Assembly (NCBI GenBank): GCA_003221805.1
Contig: QHUA01000137.1
Coordinates: 15,090 to 54,887 of the forward strand
Direction: 5' to 3'
DNA: 39,798 nucleotides
Source of the DNA: Gemmatimonadota bacterium
GTDB taxonomy: Bacteria > Gemmatimonadota > Gemmatimonadetes > Gemmatimonadales > Gemmatimonadaceae
Part shown: positions 25,804-27,462 of the stretch, in pieces
How the letters are laid out: the number at the start of each line of letters is the position of its first letter
How positions within the stretch are numbered: the stretch's first letter is position 1
Notes under the pieces: model-generated
Databases searched by the model: none
Told to the model about the DNA's origin: nothing
The model's input: only the letters and a program-made list of their open reading frames with translations
Position numbers and translations under genes: made by a program

Positions 25804-26307
25804 TTACGACGACTTGGCGGGAGCGCCTAAACCCTTCTTGCCCCAACCCTTGTGATCGCCTTTCGCGCGACGATCAGCCATCTCCTTCTGCCGCGCGTCG
25901 AACTTTACTTGCTGCGCGGGAGTCAGGACGTTGCGAATTTCCGCCGTTTCCTGAGTGCGAATGGACTGGCCGCCCTGCATCACCTGGCGAGCCTTTTCGA
26001 AGTTGCTGCGAGCTGCAGCGGTGTCACCTTTCTGGCGGGCAGCACGGGCCGCGTCGATGTACGGCTTGGCCTGGGTGCGGAGCGCCTCATTCTGCGGTTG
26101 ATACTTCTGGCGGATTGCCTTGATCTGCGCCTTCTGGGCGTCAGTCAGATTGAGATCGGACATGAAGTCGCGACCGGGTCCGCGGCGACCGCGGAATTCG
26201 TCGCCGGCGCGTGGCTTGGCTTGGGGAGCGGCAGTCGATTGAGCAACCGAGATTCCCGCTACGCCGACGAGCATCATGGCGCCGAGCGCCAATGAACGAG
26301 CAAACAT
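25804..26307 (-). CDS. Spy/CpxP-like periplasmic LTxxQ protein
   Basis: 167 aa with a signal peptide (cleavage near ISVAQS). Two LTxxQ motifs, LNLTDAQKAQIKAIRQKY and VLTPAQQVKFDARQKEM, mark the Spy/CpxP helical family of periplasmic chaperones or stress sensors. Between them lies a basic, Ala-rich helix (DAARAARQKGDTAAARSNFE). The tail is short and basic (HKGWGKKGLGAP). Family members bind unfolded proteins or metals at the envelope; no two-component or metal-sensing partner is adjacent here. Monocistronic, followed by a strong terminator. Confidence 0.85.
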   Translation of the reverse strand: MFARSLALGAMMLVGVAGISVAQSTAAPQAKPRAGDEFRGRRGPGRDFMSDLNLTDAQKAQIKAIRQKYQPQNEALRTQAKPYIDAARAARQKGDTAAARSNFEKARQVMQGGQSIRTQETAEIRNVLTPAQQVKFDARQKEMADRRAKGDHKGWGKKGLGAPAKSS

Positions 26308-26400
26308 TAACTACCTCCACAACGTTGAGAGCCGGCGCACCGTGCGCCGGTTATCCAGGTTAGACGTGGGGGTATGCTGGGTGTTAAGGATGGGCTTTGG

Positions 26401-26689
26401 TCAACGCGGGCCGTTGATTTGGGCCCGATCTGGCCACCACAAAACCAAAGCAGGGAGCTGCCAGCTTAGTCAGCGCGGAGCTATACAGCTATTCCGGCGG
26501 TGTATGGTGTCGGACGGTTGTGGTTGTCCCAGCTTCGGATAGATCTCGCCGCAGAGTCGCGATCCAGGATCAGCGCGCATCTGTAGTGCCAGTATGCTAG
26601 GTCCGAGCTGAGAAGCTGACTACGCTTACAGCTCCCTGCTTCGGTATTGAACCAAGCCAGATCGTGACGAGATCAACGGCCCGCCTTGA
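26401..26689. repeat. 289-bp non-coding element with long imperfect terminal inverted repeats (MITE- or BIME-like)
   Basis: Four blocks of the left arm recur in inverted order in the right arm with nearly equal spacing. 26401-26418 pairs with 26672-26689 (17 of 18), 26426-26433 with 26657-26664 (8 of 8), 26448-26460 with 26629-26641 (13 of 13) and 26467-26474 with 26615-26622 (8 of 8). The spacers are 7/7, 14/15 and 6/6 nt. The arms are thus about 75 nt long around a 140-nt centre. No open frame of note and no target duplication are seen. The element fills most of the 387-nt gap between the Spy-like gene and uppS. Confidence 0.75.
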
Positions 26690-26694
26690 TCACT

Positions 26695-27462
26695 CTATCC
26701 CGCGGCGGCCTCTGGTACGCTACCGAACCGACGCTCGCGGGAATGGAATTCCTTGACCGCGCTTTCTAGATCGGCGGGCGTAAAGTCCGGCCAGCGACGA
26801 TCGGTGAAGTAAAGCTCGGCGTAGGCGCACTCCCAAAGCAGGAAGTCGCTCAATCTCTGCTCTCCGCCGGTTCTGATCAGCAAATCGACGTCGCGGCACT
26901 CGCCGTCCCAATGATCGACCTGGCACATCGCTCGCGACAGCTCGTCGCGGCTCAGATTCTCCTGTCCCTGTAGACGCTCGGCCGCTCTGACGAGAGCATC
27001 GCGCGATGAGTAGTCGACGGCGATGCGGAGGTCGAGCCGCGTGCAGTGTCGTGTCGCTTCCTCGGCGACCTTGATGGCGCGCAGCAGCTCCGACGGGATT
27101 CGGTCCCGACGCCCAATGATTCGCATGCGGACGTCATTGGTGATGCAACGATCGGTTTCAGCAACGAGATAGCGTCGGAATAAGCGCATCAGCAGCGCAA
27201 CTTCGCGCGACGGCCGCGCCCAGTTGTCCGCGGAGAACGCGTATAGCGTCAGCATGCCGATTCCGCAATCGGGCGCTGCTTCGACGATCTTGCGCACGAC
27301 ACGCGCTCCAGCGATGTGTCCCGCGGTACGCGGCCGGCCGCGAGCGTTCGCCCATCGGCCATTGCCATCCATGATCATTGCGACGTGAATTCCACTTTGC
27401 GCCGGCGTCGGCTGCGGCGCTCGGACGTGCGTATGCTTCACTGTATGGTGTGTGTGAGACAT
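26695..27462 (-). CDS. uppS: Isoprenyl transferase (undecaprenyl diphosphate synthase family)
   Basis: Cis-prenyltransferase that extends farnesyl diphosphate with isopentenyl units to make the polyprenyl carrier for cell-wall and O-antigen synthesis. 255 aa. Signature motifs: [10 protein letters not shown] (catalytic Asp), [30 protein letters not shown], and [18 protein letters not shown] with [12 protein letters not shown]. The N-terminus is unusually His-rich ([13 protein letters not shown]). The gene is 4 nt downstream of a winged-helix regulator gene rather than with cdsA, dxr or frr, so it may be a second, regulated cis-prenyltransferase. Product chain length cannot be read from sequence. 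Confidence 0.93.

Follow-up and report, generated by a model that had tools for sequence, protein, structure and literature searches.

The window, a 39,798-nucleotide stretch of a Gemmatimonadota genome, carries a 289-bp palindromic element between uppS, which encodes undecaprenyl diphosphate synthase, and a gene for an LTXXQ-motif protein (Table 1). The element is intergenic and does not lie inside a 23S rRNA gene. The uppS stop codon is 5 nt from its right end, and on its left side lies the upstream region of the LTXXQ gene. A first-pass annotation had described inverted arms of about 75 nt and an absence of coding capacity. Both descriptions held: the inverted blocks were recovered in place, with positions 26398-26434 pairing with 26656-26692 (37 nt, 84%) and 26440-26474 with 26615-26649 (35 nt, 86%), and stops interrupted all six frames. 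Folding, which the annotation had recommended, gave -150.6 kcal/mol for the 289-nt RNA, whereas shuffled sequences averaged -103 (z -9.67; 0 of 200 shuffles folded as well), and the opposite strand folded at z -9.2. An Rfam search with the 289-nt element returned no match.

Table 1. Coordinates of the element, its parts and the adjacent genes in the window, with the contigs of its near-full-length copies
Feature	Position	Strand	Evidence or remark
LTXXQ-motif protein gene	25804..26307	-	Pfam PF07813; neighbour kept in most congeners
Whole IVP-less palindromic element, 289 bp	26401..26689	.	Same-ended copies in G000; site of another copy element-free in relatives
Left inverted arm	26401..26475	+	Inverted repeats; alignment of 10 copies
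Left terminal motif, consensus TCAAGGCGGGCCGTTGATC	26401..26419	+	Motif count in genome
Non-coding middle	26502..26587	.	68-69% to two congeners; conserved among IVP-less copies
Right inverted arm	26614..26689	+	Inverted repeats; half-elements begin sharply at its inner border
Right terminal motif, exact consensus match	26671..26689	-	G000:C10:41760-41778, 0 mismatches
uppS, undecaprenyl diphosphate synthase	26695..27462	-	Pfam PF01255, E 5e-74
Near-full-length copies in G000	C246, C183, C42, C2, C113 (twice), C107, C108, C92		

Copies in the genome and its congeners

The window's own genome (G000; other G numbers denote congeners, C contigs and L numbered loci) is a draft Gemmatimonadota MAG of 3.14 Mb in 247 contigs, 92% complete. 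Together with 18 others it forms a genus set of 19 genomes, and every genome compared is a draft. BLAST of the element against G000 gave 59 matches at about 23 places, so that the finding which would have refuted the first-pass annotation, a single copy with no relatives, does not apply. Nine of the other copies are near full length (245-289 bp, 74-83% identity) and about 13 are partial, half or mini copies; the ends of the window element, TCAAGGCGGGCC...GGCCCGCCTTGA, are those of other copies. The 19-bp terminal motif, allowing up to three mismatches, occurs at 30 sites in G000, compared with one for a reversed control pattern. The family has been amplified to many copies in this lineage. Congeners held only diverged relatives, found in 6 of the 18 others (at best 69% over 220 nt), in which the inner arms are conserved and the outer terminal motif mostly is not. 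A gene-less core of about 190 nt between AAGCAGGGAGC anchors measures 189-194 nt in G001, G003 and G005, and because it recurs at nearly equal length in these three genomes, this form is an old sub-family.

Isolated half-elements with a sharp border also exist. These, together with the inverted pairs, are what recommends the view that the element is a pair of REP-like units (a BIME), suggested in the first-pass annotation and here taken to be mobilised by a RAYT-type transposase. Like REP/BIME palindromes with RAYT, the elements are intergenic inverted units that occur singly and in pairs. However, of the REP features only the sharply bordered half-elements were borne out: the units are about 100 nt rather than 20-40 nt, no single-unit hairpin with a GTAG-type tag was seen, the arms are species-specific heptamer arms, and the gene bounded by the units is the IVP gene described below and not a RAYT. 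We regard a REP origin as highly improbable. Integron attC sites were also considered and rejected by eye, for want of cassettes and of a fitting R' motif.

At four places in G000 (C246:2706-2749, C107:505-548, C2:33959-34002 and C92:19333-19376) the right terminal motif occurs twice, at a spacing of 25 nt, and the spacer sequences are similar (CAGTnAGA). One of these doubled motifs is part of a mini element that measures about 80 bp and has no inner arms.

Coding relatives with the IVP gene

Arms of the window type lie beside an ORF for a four-helix-bundle protein on C59 and C167 of G000, and in G003:C5 (L099) and G001:C140 (L084) such arms flank complete genes of the 23S_rRNA_IVP (IVP, or S23p) family, the only gene family seen repeatedly between such arms in relatives; the arms at all these loci are of the AAGCAGGGAGCTGcAAGCTT.. 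type. The PF05635 profile identified 8 IVP genes in G000 and matches in 17 of the 19 genus genomes. The IVP proteins match TIGR02436 (E 2e-31 and 2e-24), and their profile matches Xanthomonas XCC0516 (PDB 2gsc); the solved S23p of Xanthomonas campestris is a homopentamer (PMC4990558).

Judged by their sequences, the gene-less and the IVP-carrying copies have both arms and inner borders in common. The inner borders are TTCCGGCGG on the 5' side of the gene and CGCCAGTATGAAAGCT on its 3' side, and L084, L099 and the C59/C167 loci share arms and inner borders with the window element. Its left arm corresponds to the arm found before the IVP gene in coding relatives, with the inner border AGCTATTCCGGCGG at about 26488-26501, and its right arm to the one found after the gene, with the inner border GCCAGTATG at about 26588-26596. 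The non-coding middle stands where coding relatives have the IVP gene, and neither an ORF nor an IVP remnant was found within the 289 bp. Because its arms and inner borders match those of the IVP copies and no ORF lies inside, the window element is, on this sequence comparison, an IVP-less, MITE-like member of the IVP family. The shared inner borders suggest that the gene-less form arose by deletion from an IVP element, the middle itself not being recognisable as IVP coding sequence. The reading that we favour, with a probability of roughly 0.7, is that of a non-autonomous, IVP-less member of a dispersed palindrome family whose full members consist of an inverted arm, a 23S_rRNA_IVP/four-helix-bundle gene and a second inverted arm.

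The C59 and C167 loci (G000:C59:4779-4907, L025; G000:C167:1-129, L024) share exactly 129 nt, comprising the 3' end of the IVP gene and the inner arm, and beyond this they run into different outer arms and flanks. The two contigs may hold separate IVP copies, or they may show a single element in which recombination between the arms inverts the middle. A motif resembling AAACGATGCTGCC seems to be common to five IVP loci (L074, L085, L094, L099 and L104), where it lies upstream of the ORF and is perhaps a leader or binding site. At G000:C169:10570-10988 (L023), window-type end motifs enclose, in place of IVP, a small ORF that encodes a putative membrane protein (MLNPDPTNQPTYKRP...); the left arm of this element contains an assembly gap.

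Insertion sites and mobility

Both forms are dispersed as units and vary in presence at orthologous sites. The IVP element of G003 is absent from G002, where the flanks are 91-93% identical, and from G009. This insertion of about 750 bp is the only IVP insertion with an 11-bp direct repeat, GTTCCCGCGAA, which lies near its limits, 20-100 nt outside the arms. In G004 and the other relatives with which G000 was compared, the corresponding intergenic region lacks the IVP element that G000 has at L080; by inspection, the preceding gene takes its stop codon from the end of this element. Among gene-less elements, the site of the 289-bp copy at C92:9911-10196 is a short element-free spacer in G009, G017, G018, G003 and G016, and holds a different palindrome in G004. 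The elements are located right behind stop codons: in 30 of 71 cases an element end is no more than 25 nt away from the stop codon of a long ORF, compared with 6.9% of random positions, a proximity due in part to selection against insertions in genes. Insertion behind intrinsic terminators looked striking at L080, L093 and C143, but concerned only 4 of 76 ends against 2% of random positions, and we do not claim it.

The first-pass annotation had called for target duplications and a transposase with matching ends, and neither was found. By inspection, the ends of the full-length 289-bp copies showed no target-site duplication, and at the 30 motif sites in the 92% complete G000 draft no inverted motif pair encloses a transposase or a stretch of transposase size. 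No transposase, reverse transcriptase or other enzyme could be tied to the family. These results bear on the annotation's proposal of a MITE, which in its classical form would have arisen by deletion from an IS, itself undiscovered, with a transposase that acts on the 19-bp motif; the likeness of the inner arms to IVP elements would then stem from insertion around or next to an IVP palindrome. Part of that proposal stands, in that the window element, like MITEs, is short, non-coding, palindromic, dispersed in many copies and absent from orthologous sites. A well-defined terminal inverted motif, amplification within one lineage, and the poor conservation of the outer motif relative to the inner arms in other genus members would all fit it. 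However, in contrast to MITEs, the window element has very long arms, no target duplication and no parent transposase that we could find, and its coding partner is IVP. The full-length 190-nt core occurs in congeners without the outer motif, and the same arms occur in the IVP copies, which tie the element to 23S rRNA intervening sequences, a link that the annotation did not see. Descent from an IS is on this evidence unlikely.

The first-pass annotation had also proposed a structured RNA, which we consider unlikely. The element would then be a long hairpin, or a bidirectional terminator or processing site, transcribed behind genes and cut by RNase III, shaping 3' ends or uncoupling neighbours, and its copies would be kept for that function. 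The very strong fold on both strands and the position directly behind stop codons speak for such a role, as does the uppS-LTXXQ spacer itself: in most of the congeners compared (L110-L125) this spacer contains a palindrome or heptamer array of one kind or another, with differing arm type and orientation. The two arms of an element are also more alike than arms taken from different elements (0.73 and 0.64, never reached in 1000 shuffles, although confounded by species), which fits upkeep of pairing or gene conversion. On the other side, the uppS site of L120 and L121 has no palindrome at all and the C92 site is element-free in several relatives; there is no T-tract, one copy lies between divergent gene starts, and element ends show no clear enrichment of intrinsic terminators. 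Compensating changes, which the annotation had looked to as evidence, could not show among the G000 copies, whose arms are too strongly conserved; both sides had changed in 7 of 85 pairs, and the covariation term was slightly unfavourable. Since the congener palindromes behind uppS differ in arms and orientation, it could not be decided whether they descend from one old insertion or from repeated insertions; the spacer is either a recurrent insertion site or the seat of one element under fast turnover.

IVP genes between inverted arms in other bacteria

Long inverted arms flanked 79 of 109 IVP genes, compared with 3 of 215 shifted control placements. By set, the counts were 23 of 25 for genus IVP genes with complete flanks (0 of 50 shifted placements), 40 of 59 for loci drawn from the GTDB species genomes as a whole (0 of 115 control placements) and 16 of 25 for loci from the class (controls 3 of 50), some loci falling in more than one set so that the three counts are not fully independent. 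The named IVP loci closest to the genus came from Gemmatimonadota/Gemmatimonadaceae MAGs. Arm sequences differ entirely from locus to locus but have a 7-nt period in common: lag-7 identity was 0.44 in the IVP arms of the genus against 0.25 in the flanks, and 0.63 in 15 IVP loci of other phyla (Bacteroidota, Ignavibacteria, Chloroflexota, Actinomycetota, Armatimonadota, Omnitrophota, Parcubacteria and others). Species-specific 7-nt tandem repeats form the IVP arms in about ten phyla. This period is seen in IVP arms as a set, and none was detected in the window element's own arm.

This organisation resembles that of the 23S rRNA intervening sequences (IVS) of Leptospira, Coxiella and Brucella, in which a PF05635 IVP/S23p ORF lies between inverted repeats that form a long stem. 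In Coxiella the IVS has tandem heptamers next to the S23p/IVP ORF, and IVS in general have been put forward as mobile elements or as remnants left by transposition (PMC4990558). In contrast to IVS, which lie inside 23S rRNA genes and are excised by RNase III, the elements described here are intergenic, occur several to a genome, and have gene-less satellites that far outnumber the IVP copies. None of the IVP loci studied matched the 23S rRNA genes of the congeners, and the two complete 23S rRNA genes in the genus are of near-normal length, with no large insertion. Intergenic 7-nt tandem repeats similar to the IVP arms have been reported in cyanobacteria and Beggiatoaceae (PMC4679880, PMC4692102). 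However, these are direct repeats, and text searches of PMC4679880 turned up no mention of an IVP gene and almost none of an inverted arrangement.

The window element and its coding relatives point to a widespread family of bacterial mobile palindromes. We suggest that the palindrome, as a cruciform, a single-strand hairpin or an RNA hairpin, would be the form recognised by the mobilising machinery, and that IVP, if pentameric like its solved relative, may bind the repeat-built arms and aid mobilisation. Such binding could allow the gene-less copies to be moved in trans, and either a DNA or an RNA intermediate would fit. More broadly, we put forward as a realistic, still tentative possibility that bacterial IVP (four-helix-bundle) genes define a class of mobile palindromes that are made up of 7-nt tandem repeats specific to each species, have gene-less satellites and insert behind stop codons without a recognisable transposase, with 23S rRNA IVS as the rRNA-located branch. 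For about 30 years it has been an open question what IVP/S23p does and where 23S rRNA IVS come from. That IVP genes are routinely found within dispersed palindromes which are insertion-polymorphic and have gene-less satellites opens the proposed role of IVP in mobility to tests outside rRNA. Some of the heptamer repeats and intergenic palindromes seen in draft genomes would also be explained, as would assembly breaks at these places. In the open-access journal literature searched we found no prior description of intergenic IVP palindromes, and an earlier report elsewhere is possible.

In a second arm family, of the TGCGGAC type, a single copy carries IVP (L080, in G000), and gene-less palindromes are numerous in both G000 and G004. 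Its arms are unrelated to those of the window element. In G004, gene-less palindromes of about 200 bp built of TGCGGAC heptamers, with arms about 4-40 nt apart, were observed on C5, C13, C41, C44, C46, C51, C63, C103 and C188.
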